Of a stretch of 64,000 bases of DNA, positions 1 to 30,657 are shown in pieces. Source of the DNA: Zooshikella ganghwensis DSM 15267 (GTDB taxonomy: Bacteria; Pseudomonadota; Gammaproteobacteria; Pseudomonadales; Zooshikellaceae); contig NZ_AUAF01000001.1 of the NCBI RefSeq assembly GCF_000428585.1, positions 62,001 to 126,000 of the forward strand, in the 5' to 3' direction. Position 1 is the first letter of the stretch. Each line of letters begins with the position of its first letter. The position numbers and the translations under genes were made by a program. A model generated the notes under the pieces. It saw only the letters and a list, made by a program, of their open reading frames with translations, was not told the DNA's origin and ran no database searches.

Positions 1-1198
1 AAACATCAACTTCAGATAAAACGTCAACAAAGTCCTCATATAAGTCACGTGTTCGAGAAAAACGATGAGGTTGATAAATCATCACTAAACGCTTTTCTGG
101 CCAACCATTTCGTATTGCATTAATCGTGGCTAATACTTCTCGCGGATGATGGCCATAATCATCAACCAGCATAACTTCACCATCAGCCACAGGGTAATTA
201 CCATATATCTGAAAACGTCTACCCACGCCTTGAAATTGCATCAGCGCATGACAAATATCTTCATCAGCAATGCCTTCATCCTGTGCAATAGCAATGGTTG
301 CAAGGGCATTTAATACATTATGTCTACCAGGCATGTTGAGACAAATATCCAGTGACTTACCTGATGGGCACACTGCAGTAAAACTTGTTTTTTGCCCAAC
401 CTGGCTTATGTTGACAGCCTGGTAGTCCGCCTCCTCAGTACAACCATAGGTAATAGTTGGTCGTTTAACCAATGGTAGTATTTCCTGCACAACAGGATCA
501 TCCGTACATAATACTGCTAATCCATAAAAAGGCAGGTTATGCAAAAAGTCGACAAATGTTTTCTTTAGTTTTTCAAAGTCACCTTCATAGGTAGACATGT
601 GGTCTGCATCAATATTGGTGACGACCGCAATCATTGGTTGCAAATGCAAAAACGAAGCATCTGACTCATCAGCTTCTGCAACCAGGTATCGGCTTGCACC
701 TAACTGAGCATTAGTGCCTGCAGAATTCAATTTACCTCCAATGACAAAAGTAGGATCAAGCCCGCCCTCTGCAAGTACTGATGAAATTAAACTCGTTGTG
801 GTGGTTTTTCCATGTGTTCCAGCCACTGCAATTCCATGCCGATAACGCATTAATTCTGCTAGCATTTCAGCCCGAGGTACGATTGGAATACGAGCTTCTT
901 TTGCTGCAATCACCTCAGGATTACTTGCAGCTACAGCACTGGAAACAACAACAACATCGGCATTGATAATATTTTTTTGGTGATGGCCAATCGCTATATC
1001 AACACCTAACTGTTGTAAATGCTCAACCGTTGCTGACGACTTAATATCTGAGCCAGCAATTTCATAGCCCTGATTAAGTAAAACTTCAGCAATGCCACAC
1101 ATACCAACACCGCCAATTCCAACAAAATGAATACGCTTTATTCGACGCATTTCTGGAATAGCGAACATGGGTACTGGTTTATTTAACGTACTAGCCAC
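1..1198 (-). CDS. murC: UDP-N-acetylmuramate--L-alanine ligase MurC (partial, C-terminus off window)
   Basis: Cytoplasmic ATP-dependent ligase that adds L-Ala to UDP-MurNAc, the first amino-acid step of peptidoglycan precursor synthesis. Translating the minus strand gives the MurC N-terminal motif [15 protein letters not shown], then the central Mur-ligase P-loop [10 protein letters not shown] and the [10 protein letters not shown] stretch. About 399 codons are present; the family is usually about 470-490, so roughly 80 C-terminal residues lie beyond the left edge. I place the start at GTG 1198: GGAGGT at 1207-1212 sits 8 nt upstream, while the in-frame ATG at 1168 has no ribosome binding site. 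With this start the gene overlaps the murG stop by 8 nt, suggesting translational coupling. It is the last visible gene of the dcw cluster; ddlB/ftsQ would be expected next. Confidence 0.96.
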
Positions 1199-2276
1199 CT
1201 TTTACAACCTCCAAGCAATGCCCTACCACTTCATTTGTCGCATCCGGCCTGGCTAACGAACGGGCAGCATTGGCCATTTGAGTCAAACGCTCTTTATTAG
1301 TCATTAATTGCGTTAATAATAATTGCACATGATCTTGAGTAAATGCTTGCTGCATAACCAACTCTGCGGCACCATGACTTACTAAATAATGTGCATTTTT
1401 AGTCTGATGATCATCAACAGCATAGGGAAAAGGTACTAGAATTGAAGGCACACCAGCATTTGCCACCTCAGCAATAGTTAACGCCCCTGCGCGACAAATA
1501 ACAAGATCCGCCCACTGATAAGCAGCCCCCATATCTTCAATAAATGCCTCAATTTTACCTTTCACACCATATTGGTTATACAGTGCCTGAGTTTGCGTTA
1601 AGTTTTTTTTGCCTGTCTGGTGCCAGATTTCAATAGACTGCTTTTGTTGTAGTTCTGCAATAGCAGATGGCACTACTTCATTTATAGCAACAGCCCCCAA
1701 ACTCCCACCTAACACCAGCAGTCTAAAAGGACGCTCATTAGACTCTGTTTCATGTATTTTTTCCTGAGGAACAATATTTTTTCTTACTGGATTACCTGTA
1801 CAATAAACTTTACGCAAACTTGCAAACGTACCAGGAAATGCCTCAAGTACACGTGTAGCAATTCGTGAGAGTAAACGATTAGTAAATCCAGCAATGGCAT
1901 TTTGCTCATGGATAACCAGTGGTATACCAAGTAACTTTGCTGCCACTCCACCTGGCCCGGCAACATACCCACCCATACCCACAACACAATGTGGCTTCAA
2001 GCGTTTTAAATGGTGTTTTGCCATACAAACTGCTTTGGTTATCATGAGTGGTGCTTTAACCCAACGCTGGACACCCTTGCCGCGAAGTCCCCCAACATTA
2101 ATTAATGTCATGGGGATTTCTTCTTTTGTAATCAAATCAGCTTCCATACTGTTGGGCGTACCAAACCAGTGAACACTATGTCCCTCGGCTAATAATTGTC
2201 GTGCTGTTGCTAACGCAGGAAATATATGCCCACCTGTACCCCCAGCCATAATCACAAATGTTTTTTGTTCACTCAC
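1191..2276 (-). CDS. murG: UDP-GlcNAc:lipid I N-acetylglucosaminyltransferase MurG
   Basis: Peripheral inner-membrane GT-B glycosyltransferase that converts lipid I to lipid II. The N-terminal glycine-rich loop [13 protein letters not shown], the [11 protein letters not shown] motif, IHEQNAIAG and a C-terminal [10 protein letters not shown] nucleotide-sugar site are all visible. I choose the GTG at 2276 (protein begins with [12 protein letters not shown]) because AGGAG lies about 8 nt upstream and the protein then has 361 residues, the usual MurG length; the open frame upstream to 2354 only reads through the 3' end of ftsW. It overlaps ftsW by 8 nt and murC by 8 nt. Confidence 0.97.
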
Positions 2277-3447
2277 GGCGTTTACTCCTGCTTTTAGTTT
2301 TAACAGAAGCTCTAAGCCTTCGTGTTTCAAAATCAATACGCAACAACAATGCAACAGCCATACAACTCACCAATAAACTACTACCGCCATAGCTCAATAA
2401 TGGCAGTGTTAACCCTTTAGTAGGCAGTAGTCCTGTATTTACGCCAATATTTATTAATGCCTGCATACCAAGAAGCAAGCCTAATCCATAAGCGATATAA
2501 GCAGAAAACAAACTATTTTCACGCTCTGCTTCTACTCCAATACACAAAGCTCGCCAGGCAACGAAAACCAGCATAAATACGACAAATAGTGCCCCAATTA
2601 AACCAAACTCTTCTGCTAACACAGCAAATACAAAGTCAGTATGGGCTTCCGGTAAATAAAACAGTTTCTGAATACTATTACCTAGCCCAACGCCAAACCA
2701 TTCTCCTCGCCCAAACGCAATTAATGCCTGAGTTAACTGGTAACCACTATCAAACTGATGTGCCCAAGGGTCGATATAGGTTGTTAGTCGCTGTAAGCGG
2801 TAGGCTTGTGAAAATGCCATTAAAGCAACAGCACCACCACAGGCCATTATCAGCAGAATAAAGTAAAACAGTTTCACCCCTGCTAAAAATAACATGCCCA
2901 CAACTGCACTAATCAGCACCACAGCCGCGCCAAAATCTGGCTCTAATAGCAGTAAAAAAACAACTAAGGCCAATAAACACATCGGCTTTAAAAAACCTGA
3001 CCAACGTTGTCGAACCTCTTCCTGACGCCGCACTAAATAACCTGCCAAATAAATAATGATGAATACTTTTGCTAATTCAGAAGGTTGAAAATTTGCAATG
3101 CCCAGGCTCACCCAGCGCTTACTTCCATTAATCTCACGCCCCACCAATAACACCGCAGACAACATCAATAGTGAGCATAAAAACAATAACCAGCCTTTGC
3201 TTTCCCACCAGCTCATTGGCACCATTAAAACCGTTAGTACCACCACTAAACTGACACTTAAATAAAGCAGTTGCCGGATACAAAAATAAAAAACATCATC
3301 ATACTGGCTAAAGGCTATTTCCGTTGATGCGGACGTCACCATCACCAACCCCGTGGCAATCAACATAATTGACACTACAACTAACGGTAAATCATACGTC
3401 ATAGTGACATTATTTTTTGATATCCAAGGCCACCAGGATTTAGTCAT
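2269..3447 (-). CDS. ftsW: SEDS-family lipid II polymerase FtsW
   Basis: Polytopic inner-membrane septal peptidoglycan glycosyltransferase (SEDS family), partner of FtsI. At 392 residues it shows about ten hydrophobic segments and the family signatures GREINGSKRWVSLG, QPSELAK and, near the C-terminus, LPLLSYGGSSLL. It has a short cytoplasmic N-terminus and a basic C-terminal tail. Its start overlaps the murD stop by 8 nt and its end overlaps murG by 8 nt, so it is embedded in a tightly packed run of wall genes. FtsW rather than RodA is supported by the dcw context. Confidence 0.96.
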   Translation of the reverse strand: MTKSWWPWISKNNVTMTYDLPLVVVSIMLIATGLVMVTSASTEIAFSQYDDVFYFCIRQLLYLSVSLVVVLTVLMVPMSWWESKGWLLFLCSLLMLSAVLLVGREINGSKRWVSLGIANFQPSELAKVFIIIYLAGYLVRRQEEVRQRWSGFLKPMCLLALVVFLLLLEPDFGAAVVLISAVVGMLFLAGVKLFYFILLIMACGGAVALMAFSQAYRLQRLTTYIDPWAHQFDSGYQLTQALIAFGRGEWFGVGLGNSIQKLFYLPEAHTDFVFAVLAEEFGLIGALFVVFMLVFVAWRALCIGVEAERENSLFSAYIAYGLGLLLGMQALINIGVNTGLLPTKGLTLPLLSYGGSSLLVSCMAVALLLRIDFETRRLRASVKTKSRSKRRE

Positions 3448-4813
3448 TCACTAACTCCTTGACCCACTGACAAAATTCATTACCACGTGCTTCATAATTT
3501 GCAAACATATCTAAGCTGGCACAGGCAGGCGATAATAAAACAACATCTCCAGGCTGAGCCATTTCAGCCGCCTTACTGACTGCACTTTGTAATGTGTCAT
3601 GCTCTTCGCCAGGAACTCCTGCCGAACGCCCCACAGCTAACAATGGTTTAGCATCTCGCCCTATAGCCACTAGATAACGACAATATTGATTGAATAAATC
3701 ACCTAAAATATCAAAATCTGCATTTTTACCATCACCACCAGCAATGAGAATTATTTTCCCTGCTATTTCAGAGCCAATGCCTTCTAATGCCGCAGATGCC
3801 GCCCCCACGTTAGTCGCTTTTGAATCATTAATAAAAGTAACCTGACTTTTCTCGGCAACCCACTCACAACGATGCGGAAGTCCTTTATACGTTCTTAAAG
3901 CAGAACACATAGCCTCTACCGGCAAACCCGCTTGATATCCTAACGCCAACGCTGCAAGTGCATTCGCATAGTTATGAAGCCCGACCACTTTTAACTCACG
4001 TGTATTCAGTAACCGATCTTGTCCCTTAACTAAAAATGTTCCGCCATCCGTATCATCTTCAATAACACCAAATTCTTTTAAATCTGGCTCATGCAAAGTA
4101 AACATTACATGAGGTATTTGCTGTGGCAGTAGCGGTTGAGTTAAAGCATCATCCTTATTACTCACTGCGGCTTTACAATTACGATAAATTTTTTGCTTTG
4201 CTTGATGATAAGCCATCAGTGAAGGATAACGATCCATATGATCTGGACTGATATTTAAAATAGTGCTTACAGTGGGCGCAAATGTATCAACCGTTTCTAA
4301 CTGAAAACTAGATAACTCCAATACAAAAATATCGAAGCCTCGGTCCAAAAGTGATAACGCAGGTATACCTAAATTACCACCCACACCTGTTTTCAAACCT
4401 GCTGCCTTGCACATGTCACCAACCATTGTGGTGACTGTACTTTTTCCATTAGAACCTGTTATCGCAATAACAGGTCTATCGCAGTAATAACCAAATAACT
4501 CAATATCACCAATAACTCGAACACCTTTTGCTTTAGCATTCGCAATCGCTGGTTCAGTGAGAGGTACACCCGGACTCACAATGAGTTCTGCAGCCCGAGA
4601 TAGCACTTCTTCTGGAATTCCACCAAGATATACTTGCACTAAAGGAAACTCGGCTCTAAAAACAGCTAACTCTGGTGGCGACTCTCTGCTATCAACAACA
4701 ATAAAATTAATACGTTGCTGCTGTAAAAAACGAGCACACGCCAACCCGGTTTTACCTAAACCAATAATGACACGAAGTTGATCAGAAGCAATTAAGCCCT
4801 GTTGTTTTTCCAT
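3440..4813 (-). CDS. murD: UDP-N-acetylmuramoyl-L-alanine--D-glutamate ligase MurD
   Basis: Cytoplasmic Mur ligase that adds D-Glu to UDP-MurNAc-L-Ala. The protein of 457 residues is close to family length. Motifs seen: an N-terminal Rossmann segment with IGLGKTGLACARF, the ATP-binding P-loop ITGSNGKSTVT, LNISPDHMDR and, in the C-terminal domain, INDSKATN and LLSPACASLDMF, the last typical of MurD. It starts 7 nt after the mraY stop and overlaps ftsW by 8 nt. Confidence 0.97.
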   Translation of the reverse strand: MEKQQGLIASDQLRVIIGLGKTGLACARFLQQQRINFIVVDSRESPPELAVFRAEFPLVQVYLGGIPEEVLSRAAELIVSPGVPLTEPAIANAKAKGVRVIGDIELFGYYCDRPVIAITGSNGKSTVTTMVGDMCKAAGLKTGVGGNLGIPALSLLDRGFDIFVLELSSFQLETVDTFAPTVSTILNISPDHMDRYPSLMAYHQAKQKIYRNCKAAVSNKDDALTQPLLPQQIPHVMFTLHEPDLKEFGVIEDDTDGGTFLVKGQDRLLNTRELKVVGLHNYANALAALALGYQAGLPVEAMCSALRTYKGLPHRCEWVAEKSQVTFINDSKATNVGAASAALEGIGSEIAGKIILIAGGDGKNADFDILGDLFNQYCRYLVAIGRDAKPLLAVGRSAGVPGEEHDTLQSAVSKAAEMAQPGDVVLLSPACASLDMFANYEARGNEFCQWVKELVND

Positions 4814-4820
4814 GCTCTTA

Positions 4821-5903
4821 TTACCGCAGTTTCAAGGTAGCTAAACCAATTAATACTAAAATCAATGTGATAATCCAAAAACGAACAATAACACGAGGCT
4901 CTGGCCAACCTTTTAATTCAAAATGGTGATGCAAGGGTGCCATTCTAAAAATACGTCGTCCCGTCAACTTATAGGAACCTACCTGTAAAATGACAGAAAC
5001 TGTTTCCATAACAAACACACCACCCATAATAAATAACACAATTTCCTGCCGGACAATTACCGCAATAACACCAAGTGCAGCCCCTAGCGAAAGTGCACCA
5101 ACATCCCCCATAAACACCTGTGCTGGGTAAGTGTTAAACCATAAAAAACCTAATCCAGCACCCACTAAGGCTGCACAAAATACAACAAGCTCTCCTGCAC
5201 CTGCGATATAAGGAATATGCAAATAATCGGCAAAACCAATATGGCCACTTAAATAAGCAAAGATACCTAAAGCACTTCCAACCATAACTGTGGGCATAAT
5301 TGCCAGCCCATCCAAACCATCGGTCAGGTTCACAGCATTGCTACTACCCACAATGACAAAATACGTCAGTACGATATAAAAAATGCCTATATCCAAAACC
5401 ACTTCTTTAAAAAATGGCACGATCAACTCAATTTCTGCAGGTGAAGGCGCTGTTTTAAATAAAAAAACTGCTGCACCAAGCCCTCCAACTGACTGCCAAA
5501 AATATTTCCAACGGGCTGGCAGTCCTCGCGAATTTTTTTCAATCACTTTTCGGTAATCATCAACCCAACCAACAGCACCAAAAATCAGCGTAACGCCTAA
5601 TACTACCCATACATAACGATTACCCAGATCAGCCCATAACAATGTACTAATAGCAATTGCCACAAGGATTAACGCGCCACCCATTGTTGGCGTTCCAGCC
5701 TTGCTCAAATGCGACTGAGGTCCATCATCTCTGACAGCCTGGCCAATTTGATAATGTGTCAGTTGTTTAATCAATTTTGGTCCCAACCAAAGCGCTAACC
5801 CCAACGATGTTAACACCCCTAAAATGGCCCTAAATGTTAAATACTGAAAAACGGTAAAACTGCTTTCATACTGCGCTAGAAATTCCGCCAACCACAACAG
5901 CAT
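4821..5903 (-). CDS. mraY: Phospho-N-acetylmuramoyl-pentapeptide-transferase MraY
   Basis: Integral inner-membrane enzyme that transfers phospho-MurNAc-pentapeptide to undecaprenyl phosphate, giving lipid I. At 360 residues it is the canonical length. Seen are the signatures [16 protein letters not shown] with its catalytic acidic residues, [24 protein letters not shown] and the C-terminal [11 protein letters not shown]. About ten transmembrane segments are evident. GGGAG lies 8 nt upstream of the ATG, and the gap from murF is only 3 nt. It belongs to the dcw operon. Confidence 0.97.
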
Positions 5904-5906
5904 TTA

Positions 5907-7277
5907 TTAATTACTCCCATAATTCCTATCCAAACAGGCCATAACAACATCTTCCATTTTTGCACTGCGAGAGCCTTTAACCAAAACAGTTGTTTCATTA
6001 GTTAAAAGTGCTTGCAGCTCATCTATAAGATTTTGTTTATTCGTATAGCCATGCCCACATTCGCCAAAACGAGCGACCGTATGTTGGCTTAAAGGCCCAA
6101 CCGTTAACAAATGGTTTATGCCCATTTTTCGAGCATAATCACCTAATTCTGCATGAATTTCTTCAGCATCTTGGCCCAGCTCAGCTAAATCACCTAGCAC
6201 CAATACACGTTCCCCAGGCTGCAGTGAAAGTAAATCAATTGCCGCCTTTACAGAACCTGGGTTTGCATTATAAGAGTCATCAATGAGTACTGCGCCCATT
6301 TTTCCTGGCAGCTTGTTGCCCCGACCTTGAACTGGCTCAACCTCGGCCAAAGCATTTATAGCCACGGGAATAGCTACCCCTAAAGCGATAGCTCCTGCAA
6401 TAGCGGCTAATGCATTGGCAACTTGATGCTTACCTCCCAGTTTGAGCTCAACAGGAAATACTTGTGCTTGATAGCGCAAGTTAAAGTACATACCGCCATT
6501 AGGCAAAGGCTCAATGGCTGTTGCCTCAAGGTCTGCAGCACAGTCATCAAGTGCAAATGACAAAATATGGCATGATGAAGCTTGATCTTGCCAATAATCA
6601 AAAAACACATCATTTTTATTGAGAACAGCAACACCATTAGCTGGCAAAGCGTGTAAAATTTCTGCTTTTGCTTGAGCTATTTTTTCAACAGACCCAAATC
6701 CACCTAAATGAGCACGCGTCACATTAGTAATAATGCTAACGTCAGGCTGGGCTAAATCTGCCGTATAAGCAATTTCACCAACCTCACTTGCGCCAAGCTC
6801 AATCACAGCAAACTGATGCTCTGCAGTAAGCTGCAAAAGTGTTAATGGAGCACCAATTGCATTATTTAAATTACCCTTGGTAGCCAGCACATCCCCTTGC
6901 TTATGCATAATGGCAGTGAGCATTTCTTTAACGGTGGTTTTTCCGCTATTACCAGTAACCGCTACCAGCTTTCCAGAGTAATACTGACGGTTTAATGCCG
7001 CTAATTTACCCAGCGCCTGAAGAGTATCTTTTACACATAACTGGGGGATAGGCACATTTTCTTGCACTTCACTGACGATTGCAGCACTAGCTCCTTTTTC
7101 ATAAGCAGCAGCGACAAAGTGATTGCCATTAAAATTGGGTCCTTGCAACGCAATAAACAAGTCACCAGGTTGCAACTGCCGGGTATCAGTAACGATATTG
7201 CCTATTTCAATATCTTGACCATGCAAATCAGCATCTAATGCGGAGGTAACATCTGATAAGTGCAAGCGCTTAATCAT
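5907..7277 (-). CDS. murF: UDP-N-acetylmuramoyl-tripeptide--D-alanyl-D-alanine ligase MurF
   Basis: Adds D-Ala-D-Ala to the UDP-MurNAc tripeptide in the cytoplasm. The 456-residue protein has an N-terminal substrate domain with TDTRQLQPGDLFIAL, the Mur P-loop AVTGNSGKTTVKEM and the C-terminal DDSYNANPGS motif. Two ATGs are close together; AAGGAG is only about 1 nt from the first (7283) but 7 nt from the second, so I start at 7277 (protein MIKRLHLSD). With that start it overlaps murE by 8 nt, the same overlap as three other junctions in this operon. Confidence 0.96.
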   Translation of the reverse strand: MIKRLHLSDVTSALDADLHGQDIEIGNIVTDTRQLQPGDLFIALQGPNFNGNHFVAAAYEKGASAAIVSEVQENVPIPQLCVKDTLQALGKLAALNRQYYSGKLVAVTGNSGKTTVKEMLTAIMHKQGDVLATKGNLNNAIGAPLTLLQLTAEHQFAVIELGASEVGEIAYTADLAQPDVSIITNVTRAHLGGFGSVEKIAQAKAEILHALPANGVAVLNKNDVFFDYWQDQASSCHILSFALDDCAADLEATAIEPLPNGGMYFNLRYQAQVFPVELKLGGKHQVANALAAIAGAIALGVAIPVAINALAEVEPVQGRGNKLPGKMGAVLIDDSYNANPGSVKAAIDLLSLQPGERVLVLGDLAELGQDAEEIHAELGDYARKMGINHLLTVGPLSQHTVARFGECGHGYTNKQNLIDELQALLTNETTVLVKGSRSAKMEDVVMACLDRNYGSN

Positions 7278-8775
7278 AAGCATACTCCTTCAATACTTTT
7301 GCTACTTGCACAAGGTCACTGAAGGGGTAGCGCTGACCATTAACCTCTTGATAATCTTCATGACCTTTACCTGCTACAACAACAATATCATCTGGCCTCG
7401 CCGCTAAGATGGCCTCTTGTATTGCTTTAGCTCGGTCAACTTCGACGTGAACCTGAAGCTGAGCATGTTTAAAACCAGGCATGATATCGTTGATGATCGC
7501 ACTAGGATCTTCTGTGCGAGGGTTATCACTGGTCACCACACATTCATCAGCGCACTGAGCAACCGCTTCAGCCATTAAAGGACGTTTTCCTGAGTCGCGG
7601 TCACCACCACAGCCAAAAACACACACCACTTTACCCAGAGAGTGCAAACGAACAGCTTTCAATAAATGTGCAAGGGCATCAGGCGTATGCGCATAATCAA
7701 CAACAACTGTTGGCTGGTTTTCTTCACCAAAATACTCCATTCGACCAGGAACTGTTTTGAGCGCTGATAATGCATCCACAATTCGCTCAACTGGCTGCCC
7801 ATGACAGCCTAGTGCAGCAACTGCGGCTAACACATTTTGCAAACTAAAGTGACCTAACAGTGGAATATTGGCTAAAACGCTACCCCATGGCGTATGCAAC
7901 AAACACTGGATACCATGAGGTAAATACTGAATCTGACTTGCATAAACATCAGCAGAAGCATTACTTAGACTGTAGGTAATTTGCTCTGTGGTTTCAGCTA
8001 CAGAGTGTTTAATAAAAGCTGCGTAATCATCATCCAAATTAATAATGGCATGTTTAAGCTCTGGCCAGGCAAATAGCTTAGCCTTGCTTTGCGCATAAGC
8101 TTCCATCGTGCCATGAAAATCCAAGTGATCCCGACTGAGATTCGTAAAAATCATGGTTTCAAACTTACAACCCACAAGCCGACCTTGTTCTACTCCATGG
8201 GAAGAAGCCTCCATCGCTAAATACGCAACTCTTTTTTGCACTAGTTCTGTAAGGTGAGACTGAATAACTAAACTACTAGGCGTGGTATTTAAACTAGCAT
8301 TTAACGCATCAAGCATGCCGTAGCCTAACGTTCCCATGACACCTGCAGATATATTTAAAGCACTAAACAACTGGGCAATAAAATGAGAAGTTGATGTTTT
8401 ACCATTCGTGCCAGTAACGCCAATTACTTGAATATGTTCGCTAGGGTTATGAAAATAACGACTAATGATACTTCCTACTTGAGTACTTAAATTCTGCATC
8501 AAAAACACAGGAATAGCATAGTCATACTGTGTTTCTGCCAGTACGCTATTTGCCTCAGCTAATACGCCAACAGCACCTCGTTCAACAGCTTGAGTGATAA
8601 ACTGATGACCATTCACCCGAGAACCCGGCAACGCAATAAACAAGTCCCCAGGTTTAACTTGCCGGCTATCTAATGCAATACCCGTGATGGTTAAATGCGC
8701 ATCAACAACCACATCAAAACCTGAGAGCAGTGCCTGTAACAACCATGTTTTTTGATCTACTTGCTGCGTATTCAT
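7270..8775 (-). CDS. murE: UDP-N-acetylmuramoyl-L-alanyl-D-glutamate--2,6-diaminopimelate ligase MurE
   Basis: Cytoplasmic Mur ligase that adds the third residue of the stem peptide. The 501-residue protein has the P-loop TGTNGKTS at about 121-128, the carbamylated-lysine region around KAKLFAW, and DNPR at about 417-420, the signature that selects meso-diaminopimelate rather than lysine. This predicts ordinary Gram-negative mDAP peptidoglycan. The start has no strong Shine-Dalgarno sequence, but it lies 6 nt after the ftsI stop, so coupling is likely. Confidence 0.97.
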   Translation of the reverse strand: MNTQQVDQKTWLLQALLSGFDVVVDAHLTITGIALDSRQVKPGDLFIALPGSRVNGHQFITQAVERGAVGVLAEANSVLAETQYDYAIPVFLMQNLSTQVGSIISRYFHNPSEHIQVIGVTGTNGKTSTSHFIAQLFSALNISAGVMGTLGYGMLDALNASLNTTPSSLVIQSHLTELVQKRVAYLAMEASSHGVEQGRLVGCKFETMIFTNLSRDHLDFHGTMEAYAQSKAKLFAWPELKHAIINLDDDYAAFIKHSVAETTEQITYSLSNASADVYASQIQYLPHGIQCLLHTPWGSVLANIPLLGHFSLQNVLAAVAALGCHGQPVERIVDALSALKTVPGRMEYFGEENQPTVVVDYAHTPDALAHLLKAVRLHSLGKVVCVFGCGGDRDSGKRPLMAEAVAQCADECVVTSDNPRTEDPSAIINDIMPGFKHAQLQVHVEVDRAKAIQEAILAARPDDIVVVAGKGHEDYQEVNGQRYPFSDLVQVAKVLKEYAYD

Positions 8776-8781
8776 ATACTT

Positions 8782-10506
8782 TTACGACTTATTTTTAATC
8801 CCAGGTTTTGCTTCTTGTTTGGCGACAGTAGGCATATTGTCTGGTGGAACACCTAACATTCTTAAAGCTCCTGCTGTCACATTCGAAAAAATTGGGGCCG
8901 CAACTGCACCACCGTAGTATTTTCCAGCCTTAGGATTATCAATCATCACGACTGTAACCACGCGCGGATTTGTGGCTGGGGCCATACCCGCAAAAATCGA
9001 CATATATTTTTTTTCTTCATAACCATGAGCACCGACTTTATGTACTGTGCCCGTTTTGCCCGCCACTGAATAGCTATCCACTTTGGCACGAGTGCCTGTC
9101 CCCCCCTGTTCAATAACGGTGGTTAACATTCGGACCACTTGCTTGGCTACTTTCTTAGGTAAAATTTGTTGTGCATCAACACTGGCGGGGTCATCTACCT
9201 TTAATAAGGATACAGGACGCTTAATACCGCCAGAAGCAAGTACCATATAGGCTTGGGCTACTTGCAGTGGTGTGGTGGAAAGACCGTACCCATAAGACAA
9301 GGTGGCAATTTCCACTGGGCGCCACTTAGTGTGAACAGGCAAACTACCACTTCGCTCACCAGGAAAACCAACCCCTGTTGGCTCACCAAGCCCAACTCGA
9401 CTAAGCAGTGACCATAACTGTTCAACACCAATATCTTGAGCAATTTTGGTTGTTCCCACATTGCTCGATTTGGTCAACACAGTAGTTAAATCGATGACGC
9501 CATAATTTCGGTGATCTTTAACTGCTTTACGACCAACCATGATATAGCCAGGGCGCACATCGATTTTGGTATCAGGCGTGTATTTGCCTGTTTCTAACGC
9601 AGCAGCAACAGTAAAGGCTTTCATGGTAGAGCCAGGCTCAAACACATCAGTTACCGCACGATTTCGTAATGCAGAAACTTTCACCCCCTTTCGGTTATTG
9701 GGGTTAAAAGACGGGTTATTGACCATTGCCAATACTTCACCTGTAGTAACATCCAATACGACAACTGAACCACTATCTGCTTCGTTTTCTTTAACCGCAT
9801 CTTGAAGAGCTCGATAGGCATAGTATTGAATGCGCATATCAATGCTCAGCATTAACTCCTTACCTGGTTCCGCACTTTTAATCGATTGCGCCTGCTCAAT
9901 AAGGCGACCACGACGATCCTTCAGCAAGCGCACCTTACCTGGCTTACCATCAAGCCACTCACTGTAAGCCAGCTCGATGCCTTCTTGCCCTTGGCCATCA
10001 ATGTTGGTGAATCCTATGAGATGAGCAGCCACTTCACTGGCAGGATAATAGCGACGAAACTCATCCATGACGTAAACACCTGGAATATCCAGTGCGGTTA
10101 CCTTGTCACCCTGTTTGGGCGTTAAGTGACGACGTAGATAAATAAATTCTTTATCGGCACTGCGTAAAATTCGCTTGGCTAAGGTTTTACGCTTAATACC
10201 TAATGTATCTGCCAGCTCTGGCCAGCGTGCTTTGTGTTCTACAAGTTCTTTTGGATTTCCCCAAAAAGACTTAACAGGTGTGCTAACAGCAAGGGGCTCA
10301 CCGTTTCGATCAAAAATAATGCCCCGCGTTGCCGCTATCTCGGTATAGCGAACTGTTCGTTTATCACCTTGATCCTGCAAAAACTGGCGATTTATGACAT
10401 GCAAATCAATAATACGCCAGGTAATGACGCCCATAACCAGCATCAAGCACGTTACAACAACTCGAAAGCGCCAAATATAAGGCCCTGTCTGCTTGACCTT
10501 ACTCAT
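8782..10506 (-). CDS. ftsI: Septal peptidoglycan DD-transpeptidase FtsI (PBP3)
   Basis: Bitopic class B penicillin-binding protein that cross-links septal peptidoglycan together with FtsW. In 574 residues there is a single N-terminal transmembrane helix (about 15-35), a non-catalytic pedestal domain, and a transpeptidase domain with all three active-site motifs: STMK at 293-296 (nucleophile Ser293), SSN at 346-348 and KTG at 483-485. The start overlaps the ftsL stop in an ATGA arrangement. Confidence 0.97.
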   Translation of the reverse strand: MSKVKQTGPYIWRFRVVVTCLMLVMGVITWRIIDLHVINRQFLQDQGDKRTVRYTEIAATRGIIFDRNGEPLAVSTPVKSFWGNPKELVEHKARWPELADTLGIKRKTLAKRILRSADKEFIYLRRHLTPKQGDKVTALDIPGVYVMDEFRRYYPASEVAAHLIGFTNIDGQGQEGIELAYSEWLDGKPGKVRLLKDRRGRLIEQAQSIKSAEPGKELMLSIDMRIQYYAYRALQDAVKENEADSGSVVVLDVTTGEVLAMVNNPSFNPNNRKGVKVSALRNRAVTDVFEPGSTMKAFTVAAALETGKYTPDTKIDVRPGYIMVGRKAVKDHRNYGVIDLTTVLTKSSNVGTTKIAQDIGVEQLWSLLSRVGLGEPTGVGFPGERSGSLPVHTKWRPVEIATLSYGYGLSTTPLQVAQAYMVLASGGIKRPVSLLKVDDPASVDAQQILPKKVAKQVVRMLTTVIEQGGTGTRAKVDSYSVAGKTGTVHKVGAHGYEEKKYMSIFAGMAPATNPRVVTVVMIDNPKAGKYYGGAVAAPIFSNVTAGALRMLGVPPDNMPTVAKQEAKPGIKNKS

Positions 10507-10796
10507 GGCACTACCATTTTTATCTGATCAGGATTTGGTGTTTCCATCTCCAGCTTCTCTGTTGCAATCCTTTCAACACGCTTGGGTGTAGTAAGAGTGC
10601 TATGCTGTAAAAGCAATTGCCCCCACTCAACTTGTGCAGCATTTTTCACAACAAGCTGGCGCTGCAGATCATTAAATGCACGACGATTCATGTGCGCTAC
10701 ATAAGTAATGGCTACTGAGGAGATAACCATCATCACCATCAGTATCAAAAACACCACAACTTGCTTATGCTTCAGCTGCGCTACTACATGAGTCAT
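10503..10796 (-). CDS. ftsL: Cell division protein FtsL
   Basis: Small bitopic divisome protein of 97 residues with a short basic cytoplasmic tail, one transmembrane helix (about 13-33) and a periplasmic segment predicted to be coiled coil (about 40-80). It bridges FtsB/FtsQ and activates FtsWI. Sequence conservation in FtsL is low, so the call rests mainly on size, topology and its position between rsmH and ftsI, which is invariant in gammaproteobacteria. Its stop overlaps the ftsI start by 4 nt. Confidence 0.92.
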   Translation of the reverse strand: MTHVVAQLKHKQVVVFLILMVMMVISSVAITYVAHMNRRAFNDLQRQLVVKNAAQVEWGQLLLQHSTLTTPKRVERIATEKLEMETPNPDQIKMVVP

Positions 10797-10819
10797 AGGG
10801 ACCCTCTTACTAATTGACG

Positions 10820-11761
10820 CTAACGCAATTTAGTGGCCACCCGCATAATTGAACTTCTAGCGCGGGGGTTTTGCTGAACTTCTACTTCACTTGGACGAAC
10901 AGGTTTCCTTTCACCTCGGAGGCGCTGAGAACTACTGACCATATCAACGGTCACGGGTACACCCGGTGGATACTCAGTCCCTTTTTCATGCTTTCTGATA
11001 AAGCGTTTTACGATGCGATCTTCAAGTGAGTGGAAGCTAATAACAACCAGTCGACCATTGACGTGTAAACACTGGAGCGCATCATCTAATCCTTGCTGCA
11101 AATCATCCAGCTCTCTGTTCACAAAAATGCGAATTGCCTGGAAGGATCGCGTCGCAGGATGCTTATGCTTTTCCCACGAAGGGTTAGCCTGCGCTACGAT
11201 CTCTGCTAACTGTTTTGTCGTAGTGATAGCTGCCTCCTCTCGGGCACGCACAATGGCATTTGCAATTCGCCGAGCAAAACGCTCTTCACCATACTCTTTC
11301 AAAACTATCGCAATATCTCGCTCATCTGCTCTTGCTATCCAGTCTGCTGCACTCACTCCATGGTCAGGATTCATTCGCATATCCAGCGGGCCATCTTGAA
11401 GGAAACTAAACCCGCGTTGAGCATCATCAAGCTGGGGGGAGGACACCCCCAAGTCCAGTAAAATACCATCTACCCGCCCCAGCCAGTGATGCTGTTTCAC
11501 CCACTCCATTAACTGTGCAAATGAACCATGGACAACACTTACTCTTGAATCCTCCTGTGCTAACTGATTAGCAATGGCGATTGCTGTAGGATCTTTATCA
11601 ATAACCAGTAGCTTCCCCTCAGCCCCCAACTGAGACAGAATCTTCCGGCTATGTCCACCACGCCCAAATGTGCCATCAATGTAAATACCATCAGCGACAA
11701 TATTTAGCTGCTGTACAGCTTCATCCAACAACACAGTGGTGTGTCTTAGTTCTTCAGTCAT
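10820..11761 (-). CDS. rsmH: 16S rRNA m4C1402 methyltransferase RsmH (MraW)
   Basis: SAM-dependent methyltransferase that makes N4-methyl-C1402 in the ribosomal P site. It acts on the same nucleotide as RsmI, which is encoded just upstream at about 13 kb. The 313-residue protein begins with [16 protein letters not shown] and contains the SAM site [22 protein letters not shown] and the C-terminal [14 protein letters not shown] motif. The open frame extends upstream to 11875, but that part only reads through mraZ in another frame; ATG 11761 lies 7 nt after the mraZ stop and matches family N-termini. Confidence 0.97.
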
Positions 11762-11768
11762 AAGCTCA

Positions 11769-12224
11769 CTACAACGACAAGGACTGCAGCTCATCTGGCA
11801 TTTCACTTCCTTGACTGGCTTCCGCCAGGTAGGCATCGCGACGCTCGCTCCAGCGCAGTTCACTCCAAAGTTCAAATTTTTTGCCCTGGCCCAAGAGGAT
11901 CACTTTCTTCTCGAGGCCAGCATAATCTCTTAGCAGTGGCGGGATTAACACCCTACCACTCCCATCAATTTCTAAATCAGTGGCATGCCCTATCAGCAAC
12001 CGCTGTATCCGTCTAGCTACAGGGTTGAAGCTTGGTAACGCCTCAATTTTTGCCTGGATTTCCTCCCACTCATCAATGGGGTAGATCAACAGGCAAGGTT
12101 CTTCTGTATCAATCGTGGCGACTAAAGAACCATTGCAATGGGAACTTAGTACTTCTCGGTAACGACTTGGGATAGCAAGCCGCCCCTTGGCATCCAGACT
12201 GATTGCATTGACTCCGCGGAACAC
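11769..12224 (-). CDS. mraZ: Transcriptional regulator MraZ
   Basis: DNA-binding repressor at the head of the dcw operon, forming ring oligomers that bind tandem boxes in its own leader. The 151-residue protein has two SpoVT/AbrB-like halves: an N-terminal [22 protein letters not shown] and a second copy around [21 protein letters not shown]. The start is a GTG at 12224. Directly upstream is an array of AAAGTGG boxes (listed separately), which supports autoregulation. Confidence 0.97.
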
Positions 12225-25936: not shown

Positions 25937-26416
25937 ATGGAACTGACAGAGAATCTTTGGCTTGCCTGCAGTATTAGCTTTGTCATCGGCTCAATCATCG
26001 GCGCATGGCTTTATCGAGCCTCAACGAGCGGTGTAGAGAGAAGCCAGTTAGAGGCAAAGCTGTCCGCCATGGAAAAGCAAATGCAAAAACACCAACAAAA
26101 CCTTGATGAACACTTTAATCAAACAGCCCAGCTTTTTAACCGTGTCACCGATGCTTACAAAGACTTGCAGGTACATATGGCAAATAGTGCGGCGTCACTG
26201 AGTCAAGATCCATCAGCATCTCACCAACTCTCTGATGCTTTATTAGCAAGCCAGACTCTGTCACCAGAGCAACCACCTGAGAGTCGTGAAAAAAGTGATG
26301 ACACCCTATTATCACCTCCCAAGGACTACGCCCCCAAATCAACTCCGGATGAAAAGGGGACTCTTTCTGAAGAGTTTGGCTTGCAACAGCCAATACAACC
26401 ACAACCAGCTAAATAG
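25937..26416 (+). CDS. zapG: ZapG / YhcB family (DUF1043) envelope protein
   Basis: Inner-membrane protein linked to division and envelope biogenesis in E. coli. The 159 residues contain one N-terminal transmembrane helix (about 9-27, with SFVIGSIIGAWLYR), a coiled coil (about 35-85) containing LDEHFNQTAQLFNRVTDAYKDLQ, the family signature, and a disordered C-terminus rich in Ser, Pro and Gln. A strong GAGGGGGG ribosome binding site precedes the ATG. Its stop overlaps the convergent QEGLA gene by 8 bp. Confidence 0.9.
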   Translation: MELTENLWLACSISFVIGSIIGAWLYRASTSGVERSQLEAKLSAMEKQMQKHQQNLDEHFNQTAQLFNRVTDAYKDLQVHMANSAASLSQDPSASHQLSDALLASQTLSPEQPPESREKSDDTLLSPPKDYAPKSTPDEKGTLSEEFGLQQPIQPQPAK

Positions 26417-28472
26417 CTTGTTTAATCTCACTGGTTGTTTTTGGCGTGATCACTATTGTTTGCTGTTTACTGACATCAAAAGGCTGAATGGACTGCAATA
26501 AGTAGTCCATTACAGGACCCGCTTCCACAGGGCTAGAAAGAAAAGCTGGTAACCACTCAGGTTTTTTAGCCATACCCCGCTCAATCATTTCATTAATAAT
26601 CGGTAAAAAACGAAAGCCGGTTTTACCAATAAATAAGTTGCGAATAGGCTGTGTTTTATAGAGTTGTACTGCCTGGCATAGCCCTTGTAGATACAAATAA
26701 TCCTTGGTAAAGCCACCACCACGGTGTACTCGGGTTGTTAAGCGAAATGCCTCATCTGGCTTCATATGGTGTTCTTCGGTTAAATACAGCCAGGTATGGC
26801 GAAAATCACGATAAAGTAGCATCTGTTCTACAGCGAGGACTCGTAATCCAAGCATTTTTAAGCGCTTTAAAGTCAAATTACCTGAATAGTGTTCACTTAA
26901 AATAGCCAAACCTTCCTGAGTTAGCGTGTTATCTGGCAACCCCAAAGCAAACACCTTTAATGGCTGTAAACCTGCGTTCAAGGTTGTCACCATATGAACA
27001 CCCAACTCGTGATGAGCTAACGCCTGCAGTTCCGTGGCTGTCACCTTGGCATCTTTGCGAACCAATAACGCTCTCCGCCCACTACTCACCATGGCCGCCG
27101 CAACCAAACGAGAACTGGTTTCGACTTTACAGTTCAGCCCCCATTCGGTTGCTTTTTGCTGCAAAATCTCACGCATTTGCTCAGCATTGTAAGCCGGGCT
27201 TTCCTCCTGCTCTGCAATAGCAGGTGCGTAGAGTAAAAAGCGCGCATTATCAATATCCTGTTTACCTGGCTCACCATAGTAACGTAAAGAGTTATAAATA
27301 AACCGCTCAGTACCAATACTCACCAATAAGTCAACCTTCATAGAGATAGTATCAATAACCTCACGATACAATTGCTGAATCCCAGCATCTCGGATTTCAT
27401 CAACGGGTAGACGATATAATTTTTCTCTTAGTAAATAAGGGTCCATTGCCAACTGGCGATAGGTAAACTCAGGCTGATACTTTGCTCTGTGCGAAAAAAA
27501 CCGCTTCATTTCATGAGCGATATTTATAGGGTTAACATACTGTAGTGTGCTTACACCTTTTGCCAACTGATATAATGCTCGATCAACCCGCTTAATAGCG
27601 GGGTCAACTAAGCTGGCTAGCATATGCTTGCGCTTGGCCTGTTTTTTCTTTGTAAAGCGCCTCGCAAAAAATGCTGCTGTATCCACTACAGTATGCTTCA
27701 TTCCTTCACTTAAACTCTGCAATACTAATGGATAAAGCTCACCACTCTTTTCATCCATGAACACTTTTTTAATTTCTGTTGGGATAACCAAGGTATTTTC
27801 AAAGCGGCTGTTTACATGAGCAATCATATAGCCTCGCCCATAAAATACTCGGTTAATTTCCACACTGGTCTTCAAGTTAGGTAGCTGCAAGGACTCCAGA
27901 CAGTTTTGATAACGCTCTATGATTGGTGTCCAACGATCCATATCTACCTGCTCTAACCCTAAGTTAAATACAGGAGCATCATCAGGTTGTCGGCCTTTGT
28001 TATAGGAATGAATATCAAATACCAAACTAGCACCAAAACGCTGCTCTAGTGCAGCTATCAATGCATCAAGAATACGGTAAAACTGACGATGCTTTTCAGT
28101 ACTTCGATGCCACTGATTATCGGTTAAAGGTGAGCGCCAAACTTTTAACCCCCAAGCTCGCTTATAAACACATTGAGCTAATGGACGGTTTAAGTCGTAT
28201 TCATATCTGGAGTCACAGGCTACCAATGTTATTGGTAATGAACGGATCAATTCTCCGGTATATGGATCTTCCTCAAAATAGCGCTGGTCGGTATCTAACA
28301 GACAGCGATTAACTAACTCCGAGCGTAACTGGCTTCCATTATGAATAGCAGTACAAATAAAAGGGACATAATCTTCAACTTTAATCTGAAAAGAGCCATC
28401 TTCAATACTGCACTCAAAGAGTTCACCTGCTTTAATGGCTTTGACAATGTCAGCTTCAGTACGACTCTGCAT
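26409..28472 (-). CDS. Fusion of N-formylglutamate amidohydrolase-like domain and QEGLA/DUF1704 (MATCAP-type) metallopeptidase
   Basis: 687 residues from ATG 28472, chosen because AAGGTGA lies 6 nt upstream; a TTG at 28478 is an alternative. Residues about 30-270 resemble the N-formylglutamate amidohydrolase/HutG-like zinc domain, with AIHNGSQLR (His44) and FDIHSYN (Asp153, His155). A linker rich in Lys/Arg follows. Residues about 290-670 are the DUF1704 domain: HELGVH at 488-493 is an HExxxH zinc motif, and QEGLA at 519-523 is the motif that names the family (annotated as flavohemoglobin expression-modulating); its Glu is a plausible third ligand. Eukaryotic DUF1704 proteins (MATCAP) are tyrosine carboxypeptidases. 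The start overlaps the upstream ATP-grasp gene by 17 nt, so the two are cotranslated. The substrate is unknown; a role in trimming a C-terminal or glutamyl-type modification is my inference. Confidence 0.85.
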   Translation of the reverse strand: MQSRTEADIVKAIKAGELFECSIEDGSFQIKVEDYVPFICTAIHNGSQLRSELVNRCLLDTDQRYFEEDPYTGELIRSLPITLVACDSRYEYDLNRPLAQCVYKRAWGLKVWRSPLTDNQWHRSTEKHRQFYRILDALIAALEQRFGASLVFDIHSYNKGRQPDDAPVFNLGLEQVDMDRWTPIIERYQNCLESLQLPNLKTSVEINRVFYGRGYMIAHVNSRFENTLVIPTEIKKVFMDEKSGELYPLVLQSLSEGMKHTVVDTAAFFARRFTKKKQAKRKHMLASLVDPAIKRVDRALYQLAKGVSTLQYVNPINIAHEMKRFFSHRAKYQPEFTYRQLAMDPYLLREKLYRLPVDEIRDAGIQQLYREVIDTISMKVDLLVSIGTERFIYNSLRYYGEPGKQDIDNARFLLYAPAIAEQEESPAYNAEQMREILQQKATEWGLNCKVETSSRLVAAAMVSSGRRALLVRKDAKVTATELQALAHHELGVHMVTTLNAGLQPLKVFALGLPDNTLTQEGLAILSEHYSGNLTLKRLKMLGLRVLAVEQMLLYRDFRHTWLYLTEEHHMKPDEAFRLTTRVHRGGGFTKDYLYLQGLCQAVQLYKTQPIRNLFIGKTGFRFLPIINEMIERGMAKKPEWLPAFLSSPVEAGPVMDYLLQSIQPFDVSKQQTIVITPKTTSEIKQAI

Positions 28473-29493
28473 CTTCAATCACCTTGCGAAACTCAGTTTT
28501 TCGCTGCGCTATCATTTCTTTAGCAGAAACTACATTTTCCACAAAATCGATCACTTTCTTCTGCAGTTTTGTCCTATTAAGGCGGTTAATACGTGTAATT
28601 CCACCAGGGCTTAATACATTTACCTCGATCAGCTTGCCATGAATGACATCAAGCCCCACAAAAAACAATCCATCTCGCACCAGTTTAGGCCCTATTGCCT
28701 GGCATAAAGCTTTTTCTTCTTTAGTCAATACATGTTTAACTTCCGTGCCACCCGCGTGAATATTTGAGCGCACATCATTTTCCGCAGGGCGGCGACGCAT
28801 AGCACCTATAGGCTCACCATTCAACATAAGGATGCGCACATCTCCGTGCTCAGCCCCTGGAACATATTCTTGTAAAATGACATAGTTGCTTTTATCACCA
28901 CTGCCAATATAAAAATCCAAAAGTGAGCGAAAGCTTTGTCGCGCTAGTTTTTCAATAACGATAACACCCTGTCCACCAAAACCATTTAGAGGTTTCAGGA
29001 TCATTCGCTCGGCATCATTCTCCATCAACACTCGCTCTAAATACTCACGGCTTTTAGAAACATGTGTAACAGGAATATACTTTTGCGCTTCACCACTAAA
29101 AGAAGCGGTGTACAGTTTATTATTGGCAATACGCAAACCATCAATATCATTCATTATGAATGTATCGTCTCGAACTGAGTCCAAAAAGTTTAACGCTACG
29201 GTATCCAGAGGTGGATTTGCCCGCATAATAATGACATCAAAGCCTGCCAGCGGCAGTTTGGAACGCTTAAAGTCTGCCACTTTGTAAAAATTTGGGATAT
29301 TAGCAGTCAGTTTCGTCGTTTTCTTAAATACATTACAAAACGCATGCGCTGTATTATCACGAATTGTTAGACTGTTAGGCGTTGTCAGGGCCACAGTATG
29401 TCCACGACTTACTGCTTCATGTATCAAGCGCAGAGTTGTATCTGTCTCAGGAGAAATTCGCTCCCAAGGATACATAAGAAAACAAACTTTCAC
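28456..29493 (-). CDS. GshB/RimK-like ATP-grasp ligase
   Basis: 345-residue ATP-grasp protein resembling glutathione synthetase. Seen are the N-terminal CFLMYPWERISPETDTT segment (GshB-like), IIMRANPPLD (about 88-96), the ATP-binding loop KPLNGFGGQG at 167-176, GDVRIL at 217-222, RRRPAENDVRSNIHAGG at 233-249 and the Mg/ATP-binding GLDVI..KLIEVNVLSP at 280-295. It starts at GTG 29493 with GGAG 9 nt upstream. The gene is coupled to the downstream FGase-DUF1704 fusion rather than to gshA or other glutathione genes, so it may ligate an amino acid to a peptide or protein rather than make glutathione. True GshB cannot be excluded from sequence alone. Confidence 0.85.
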   Translation of the reverse strand: MKVCFLMYPWERISPETDTTLRLIHEAVSRGHTVALTTPNSLTIRDNTAHAFCNVFKKTTKLTANIPNFYKVADFKRSKLPLAGFDVIIMRANPPLDTVALNFLDSVRDDTFIMNDIDGLRIANNKLYTASFSGEAQKYIPVTHVSKSREYLERVLMENDAERMILKPLNGFGGQGVIVIEKLARQSFRSLLDFYIGSGDKSNYVILQEYVPGAEHGDVRILMLNGEPIGAMRRRPAENDVRSNIHAGGTEVKHVLTKEEKALCQAIGPKLVRDGLFFVGLDVIHGKLIEVNVLSPGGITRINRLNRTKLQKKVIDFVENVVSAKEMIAQRKTEFRKVIEDAESY

Positions 29494-29874: not shown

Positions 29875-30657
29875 CTAAGTAGCCAGCGATAAATTTAAAC
29901 GCACCCTATTGACCAGCTCTACAATAAACGCACCAAACATTCCAAACATAATGGCCAGCAAGCAACCAATGGTAATCAAAAGCATTTTACTTATACCCTT
30001 TGGTTGCAAGCTTTGTGTTGCGGTCTCGATAATCACCCCTCCTTGCAATTCACTTAGCTGGTTTTCCAAAGTGGTAACCTTCATGAGTAACTCCATTGTT
30101 TTAGCCGGTGGTGCATGCCCATCCACTTGCTCCAACGTTTTCTTAGTAGACAACAGCTGTTGTTTAATACTTCTTGAAGCCTGTTCAACAATTTCAGTTT
30201 GTGCAGCATGAATTTTTTCAACAATAATTTTATGAAACTCACTCACTTTATCTTTACCAGCTAAACGGGCCTCACTGGATATCATAATTAAACCGGTATC
30301 TTTAAGCGCCTGGAAAGATACTTTAAAAGGTAAATCTTGAAGTTGATATCGCTGGGTAAACTCACGAGATACTTGTGGATAGTAAACTCTACTTGCTTTC
30401 TGAACGACAGCTTGAGGAGGCTCAATATAGTCACTCCAGCTACGTTTAGCTAATTGGTAAATACTGACAAAGGTATATGCATCAGGCTTAATTAAAGCCA
30501 CCGCTACTGTTACAACAATAATTGTCGCAGTAATGCCACACAACCAACGCCAATGGTTCACCAACACCTTAATAATATCAACTAAAGAAATTTCATCATC
30601 TACTGACGCTAACGGCTGTAATGCATGACTGTTTTTGATAGGTACTTGATTATCCAT
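29875..30657 (-). CDS. Wzz/chain-length-determinant family inner-membrane protein
   Basis: 260-residue protein with the Wzz topology: a short cytoplasmic N-terminus containing DEISLVDIIKVLVNHWRW, a transmembrane helix (about 38-56), a periplasmic region with heptad-like segments (about 140-200) and a second transmembrane helix (about 221-246). Such proteins set polysaccharide chain length in O-antigen or capsule assembly. No polymerase or flippase lies nearby, and the C-terminal proline-glycine motif is only partly evident (QPKGISKM), so its partner system is unknown. It sits alone between trxB and the ATP-grasp operon. Confidence 0.78.
   Translation of the reverse strand: MDNQVPIKNSHALQPLASVDDEISLVDIIKVLVNHWRWLCGITATIIVVTVAVALIKPDAYTFVSIYQLAKRSWSDYIEPPQAVVQKASRVYYPQVSREFTQRYQLQDLPFKVSFQALKDTGLIMISSEARLAGKDKVSEFHKIIVEKIHAAQTEIVEQASRSIKQQLLSTKKTLEQVDGHAPPAKTMELLMKVTTLENQLSELQGGVIIETATQSLQPKGISKMLLITIGCLLAIMFGMFGAFIVELVNRVRLNLSLAT

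Follow-up and report, generated by a model that had tools for sequence, protein, structure and literature searches.

Two overlapping genes of Zooshikella ganghwensis DSM 15267, found in a stretch of 64,000 nucleotides (NZ_AUAF01000001.1, 62,001-126,000 of the forward strand; the window), encode a GshB-like ATP-grasp ligase, here called LIG, and a fusion protein, FGMAT, which joins an N-formylglutamate amidohydrolase-like (FGase) zinc domain to a MATCAP (DUF1704/QEGLA) zinc domain. The pair is probably a salt-responsive system, mislabeled as glutathione synthesis, for making and trimming a peptide. More specifically, we propose, at a probability of about 0.5, that LIG and FGMAT run an add/trim cycle at low salinity, the substrate of which is most likely a small acidic (glutamyl-type) peptide and not glutathione. 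In such a cycle LIG would use ATP to activate a C-terminal carboxylate, to which an amino acid would then be joined by the chemistry of GshB-type ATP-grasp enzymes, the two zinc sites of FGMAT would take amino acids off that acidic substrate, at its C-terminus or from side chains, and the whole would be called up as salinity falls. The individual domains are known, and the pairing of a ligase with a peptidase is a known theme (RimK/RimB, RloC/RloA, and TTL/MATCAP); the combination, its spread, and its link to low salt are undescribed in the literature searched, a search that did not reach the amidoligase survey of Iyer et al. 2009.

Gene Organization and Conservation

LIG (28456-29493, minus strand; 345 residues from a GTG start) lies upstream of FGMAT (26409-28478, minus strand), and the end of the first reading frame overlaps the start of the second by 23 nucleotides (28456-28478, minus strand). 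FGMAT is 689 residues long from its TTG start, from which we count all of its residues, and 687 residues long from an ATG at 28472, two codons downstream, with which the overlap is 17 nucleotides. An earlier note on this DNA had described two overlapping genes at 26409-29493, one of them for a 687-residue protein with HExxxH at 488-493 and QEGLA at 519-523; both open reading frames (ORFs) are confirmed, and its numbering, which is two lower than ours because it was counted from the ATG, is correct on that basis.

The arrangement is not peculiar to Zooshikella. Among 229 Gammaproteobacteria, a LIG-type ligase occurs in 14 genomes and a fusion-type MATCAP in 13, and in 12 genomes the two are neighbors (p about 4e-17 in a hypergeometric test that takes no account of phylogeny). 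A wider survey took the 80 closest FGMAT relatives from 84,980 species genomes, which are best matches rather than independent samples; two were cut by contig ends, leaving 78 testable loci. LIG stands directly upstream in 73 of these, with order and strand the same, and overlaps its partner in 72 of the 73 (median 20 nucleotides), so that the overlap is more than chance. The linked loci belong to Gammaproteobacteria, Bacteroidota, and one Nitrospirota metagenome-assembled genome, and the named hosts are mostly marine. The co-occurrence of ligase, FGase, and DUF1704 genes that the earlier note had raised is thus conserved across genomes, and, judged by sequence, LIG and FGMAT are one co-translated, conserved functional unit.

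Other Gammaproteobacteria carry a three-gene form, in which FGase, a MATCAP with a degenerate FGase-like N-domain, and LIG are separate consecutive genes; the degenerate domain matches FGase with an hhalign probability of 95% (E 3e-8). This form, with a separate and putatively active FGase beside the degenerate domain fused to MATCAP, was seen at L061-L067 and at L059, the last of which also has two tandem LIG copies. Stand-alone MATCAPs of about 430-490 residues occur without LIG. One of them (L068; G027:C45:2571-3666) has several in-frame stops and is apparently a pseudogene, and another locus (L047:384-3156) holds a tandem pair of stand-alone genes, one of which is perhaps specialized.

Folds and Zinc Sites of FGMAT

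The MATCAP domain spans FGMAT residues 325-662 (26493-27506, minus strand; PF08014, 5e-100), with 1-362 of the 365 PF08014 model positions covered at 335 bits, and the FGase domain, which has an M14-like fold, spans residues 39-237 (27768-28364, minus strand; PF05013, 1.8e-17). An AlphaFold model built from a 56-sequence alignment (A2) reached a mean pLDDT (predicted local distance difference test) of 92 and a pTM (predicted template modeling score) of 0.89, and was compared with known structures by Foldseek and VIA-align. Residues 312-670 match human MATCAP (7z5g; Z 25.9, 298 residues, 2.9 A) and residues 27-275 match an N-formylglutamate amidohydrolase (2q7s; Z 25.4, 236 residues, 2.3 A), both well above the next unrelated structures, and the two folds that the earlier note had read from motifs are thereby borne out. 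Next in rank come DUF885 proteins and M32 carboxypeptidases on the MATCAP side and, at Z 10-12, M14 carboxypeptidases, succinylglutamate desuccinylase, and a phage poly-gamma-glutamate hydrolase on the FGase side. Because of this ranking, with MATCAP near M32 and FGase near M14, the modeled FGMAT holds two zinc folds, each of carboxypeptidase type but unlike the other, arranged in tandem.

Both metal sites are well kept. The HExxxH motif (HELGVH, residues 490-495; 26994-27011, minus strand), which contributes zinc ligands H490 and H495 and the catalytic E491, is invariant in alignment A2 and in 78 homologues, and so in A2 are Q521, E522, G523, and A525 of the QEGLA motif (residues 521-525; 26904-26918, minus strand), with E522 as the third metal ligand by alignment with 7z5g. 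H490, E491, H495, and E522 are all invariant, E491 and E522 aligning with the catalytic E281 and the ligand E316 of human MATCAP, so that the zinc site assigned earlier to 488-523 holds up with its motifs conserved. In the FGase domain the residues of an H...E...DxH pattern are conserved: the probable metal ligands H46 (28341-28343, minus strand) and E70 (28269-28271, minus strand) are invariant in alignments A2 and A4, D155 is likewise invariant, and H157 (28008-28010, minus strand), a further probable ligand, is conserved in 77/79. H157 is replaced by N in L112, where LIG is present, and by Y in L132 and R in L058, both without LIG. The last of these, an FGMAT without LIG at L058:2055-4073 in a 1.4-Mb genome, looks as if the FGase site had decayed on loss of the ligase.

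Human MATCAP/TMCP cleaves C-terminal Tyr and Glu (PMC10499314), and from its fold and motifs FGMAT is predicted to trim Tyr or Glu tails as a carboxypeptidase. Hydrolysis of N-formylglutamate by the FGase domain is putative: this domain resembles the HutG-type amidohydrolases (PF05013) in fold and conserved residues but differs from them in being fused to, or in an operon with, MATCAP and a ligase, and no histidine-utilization (hut) genes were found among the neighboring window ORFs searched. The name under which such proteins are filed comes from TIGR02421, which FGMAT matches at 392.5 against a cut-off of 338.65, and it would make FGMAT a regulator of flavohemoglobin expression with a merely incidental ligase neighborhood. 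We find this scarcely credible in view of the catalytic folds, the invariant motifs, and a linkage far beyond chance; the name is also unsupported in the literature searched, and the earlier note had remarked that it leaves the ligase and the hydrolase domain unexplained.

LIG as a Paralogue of GshB

LIG consists of the GSH-S_N and GSH-S_ATP domains (PF02951/PF02955 by profile search), and thus has the N-terminal domain of GshB. It scores 465.6 bits against NF009110 ('glutathione synthetase', PRK12458; cut-off 408), the subfamily to which it belongs, passes the glutathione synthase equivalog NF003573 narrowly (279.5 against 272 bits), and falls below the TIGR01380 cut-off (234 against 299). 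As a RimK it was rejected, since its score is far under the TIGR00768 cut-off (80.3 against 143.4 bits).

Is LIG then a second glutathione synthetase, with FGMAT turning over glutathione or a conjugate of it? The pass at NF003573, the presence of GshA in the Zooshikella genome, and the name GshB given to the gene in Photobacterium damselae (see below) speak for this reading, which we nevertheless consider highly improbable. LIG is not the sole gshB of its genome, a possibility ruled out by a canonical GshB elsewhere (G000:C4), and it matches E. coli GshB at 118 bits, against 409 for that other copy. Across the 229 Gammaproteobacteria, NF009110 scores fall into two groups, LIG-type at or above 353 bits and canonical GshB at or below 244, with the gap between them empty. 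Compared with the E. coli GshB sequence, and in a separate alignment to 1gsa, LIG keeps the residues of the ATP and metal side (K125, K160, R210, R225, D273, E281, and N283), whereas the substrate-side loop TSPTC becomes xSPGG or xSPGT in the LIG group; in Zooshikella, EVNVLSPGG (residues 290-298; 28600-28626, minus strand) stands where canonical GshB has EINVTSPTC. Three Bacteroidota genomes with the pair (G231, G232, and G240) have no other GSH-S_ATP match, nor a PF04262 GshA, with the GCS2 family PF04107 not searched and genome completeness not given. LIG thus shares fold and ATP/metal residues with GshB, but forms a separate subfamily with an altered substrate loop that is present without GshA or GshB in these Bacteroidota. 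LIG is a GshB paralogue, most likely with a different substrate, and the label of glutathione synthase that annotation routinely gives to this gene is probably mistaken. The earlier note's two doubts, that LIG might be the only gshB and might lack linkage to DUF1704 elsewhere, are answered by the canonical copy and by the 73/78 linked loci.

Expression at Low Salinity

The environmental condition comes from a published transcriptome of P. damselae RM-71 in 1% versus 3% NaCl (PMC10308900), in which A0J47_RS17020 ('GshB') rises 38.4-fold, A0J47_RS17025 ('QEGLA') 27.5-fold, and RimK 52.2-fold. The authors read RS17020, among the top low-salt-induced genes, as glutathione synthase. In strain ATCC 33539, however, the order LysR, MaoP, LIG, FGMAT fits the consecutive RM-71 tags, and the canonical GshB lies elsewhere. 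By this comparison RS17020 (P. damselae loci L103/L154) is most likely the LIG paralogue and not canonical gshB, and the parallel drawn to gshB mutants of V. cholerae may therefore fail to hold. A salt transcriptome of Halomonas elongata gave no usable statement on the pair.

Neighboring Genes and Related Systems

RimK, which makes poly-glutamate and tails on ribosomal protein S6, works against RimB, which removes them, and an Rlo operon that combines an ATP-grasp enzyme with a retropepsin controls hypo-osmotic tolerance in Pseudomonas aeruginosa (PMC12239564). Genes of this kind recur near MATCAP and LIG. Five of the 80 loci, two of them from the same genus, contain RimK-family genes, where about 0.25-0.5 would be expected (rough Poisson p about 2e-4 or less). 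In Thiomicrorhabdus arctica (L095:3203-7989), RimB-RimK-AstE stands directly upstream of FGMAT and LIG is absent, an arrangement in which RimK may stand in for LIG; at L122, RimB-RimK lies near FGMAT and LIG is missing. Stand-alone MATCAPs sit beside RimK and RimB-type genes at two loci (L041:5948-8601 and L042:4058-7824). A same-strand run in the order LIG-CorA-MscS-RimK-AstE, the second gene being for a CorA-like transporter, the third for an MscS-like channel, and the last for an AstE-like hydrolase, has no MATCAP (L149:7020-11991) and suggests a wider osmotic and glutamyl-peptide network. In the window, no RimB-type retropepsin adjoins LIG, and no RloB-type inactive-transglutaminase membrane protein is adjacent to the locus.

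LIG-FGMAT is like RimK/RimB in setting an ATP-grasp ligase beside a peptidase, in having these genes as recurrent neighbors, and in the co-induction of RimK at low salt, but its ligase is of GshB type, its hydrolases are two zinc domains and not a retropepsin, and S6 is not its general target. It shares with RloA/RloB/RloC the tie of an ATP-grasp enzyme and a peptidase to hypo-osmotic tolerance (PMC12239564), but RloA, an aspartic protease, is secreted and RloB is a membrane protein, and the LIG-FGMAT locus has neither. With TTL and MATCAP/TMCP it has in common an ATP-grasp ligase opposed to a MATCAP-fold carboxypeptidase with the same HExxxH + E metal site; it differs in that tubulin is missing, LIG is a GshB relative, and a bacterial FGase domain is fused on, with the genes co-translated.

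This last likeness raises the question of whether LIG might extend a particular protein at its C-terminus and FGMAT take the added residues off, in the manner of TTL and MATCAP with tubulin. The 298-residue match to human MATCAP, the extension of protein tails by ATP-grasp relatives such as RimK (PMC12239564), the co-induction of RimK in P. damselae, and an S6 ending in -TVEE in Zooshikella, the genome of which lacks RimK, are all consistent with this. We regard it as distinctly unlikely all the same, considering that LIG scores far under the RimK cut-off and retains the N-terminal domain of GshB. S6 was disfavored as a general target because the Bacteroidota that bear the pair lack acidic S6 tails of the RimK-target type (in Empedobacter, G240, S6 ends in -KSNSNK), and no other target is known. 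A broader form of the idea, a bacterial equivalent of tubulin tyrosination and detyrosination in which LIG would write, and the double-zinc FGMAT erase, a low-salinity tag on the C-terminus of a specific protein or signaling peptide, with a hint as to where the eukaryotic MATCAP came from, is rather unlikely. For the add/trim cycle that we favor, the likelihood of a small peptide as substrate is no lower than that of a protein, because LIG stands nearer to GshB than to RimK and S6 is not the general target.

Assessment of the Proposed Cycle

We infer from the evidence above a substrate common to LIG and FGMAT, the identity of this substrate, and the reversibility of the reaction; several observations weigh against the proposal. 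The expression data come from one strain, with tags mapped to genes by order and name and not by RM-71 sequence; FGMAT has no LIG nearby in 5/78 loci, and LIG occurs without any MATCAP in 2/14 genomes; RimK, though co-induced in P. damselae, is absent from the Zooshikella genome and is therefore not needed; and the literature yielded no measured activity for LIG, FGMAT, or close homologues. An operon that unites ligase with hydrolase, moreover, suits one-way synthesis and processing equally well.

Such a one-way pathway, in which LIG would build a small peptide metabolite and the zinc domains would mature it by deacylating it or by cutting off a leader or protecting residue, is a serious though minority possibility. 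Co-translation of the two genes suits it as well as it suits a cycle, the consecutive separate genes of the three-gene form are pathway-like, LIG is of a small-peptide enzyme type, and relatives of the FGase domain act on N-acyl-glutamate. Across the loci, however, neither a transporter nor a precursor nor another enzyme is conserved beside the pair, the MATCAP and M14-like folds are of carboxypeptidase type, and the recurrent RimK, RimB, and AstE neighbors fit cycles of addition and removal. The earlier note's interpretation, a reversible tagging pathway or the synthesis and turnover of a small glutamyl-type peptide, is partly supported; the tie to low salinity and the parallels with RimK, RimB, AstE, and MscS neighborhoods are additions to it.

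Surroundings of the Locus

Two further recurrent neighbors, a LysR-type protein (c2) and one of ~115 residues (c3), resemble HdfR and MaoP/YifE in sequence, and we therefore treat them as positional synteny, not partners. A promoter scan found sites no more numerous than in shuffles, and a terminator scan gave an excess over shuffles of only about one standard deviation. Upstream of LIG on the same strand lies a Wzz-like, chain-length-type protein (29875-30657) that does not recur at other LIG loci, and farther off in the window is an ordinary division and cell-wall (dcw) cluster (1191-12224; murG, ftsW, murD, mraY, murF, murE, ftsI, rsmH, and mraZ, named from ORF translations).

Significance

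This analysis supplies bacterial MATCAPs, known only as 'flavohemoglobin expression-modulating' proteins, with a partner enzyme, the chemistry that they likely perform, and an environmental setting where their substrate could be sought, and the published low-salt reading of LIG as a glutathione synthase is probably wrong. If the cycle is real, a zinc-peptidase branch would join the ligase/peptidase systems of RimK/RimB type, and a relative of the tubulin detyrosinase would be placed in an experimentally easy setting.

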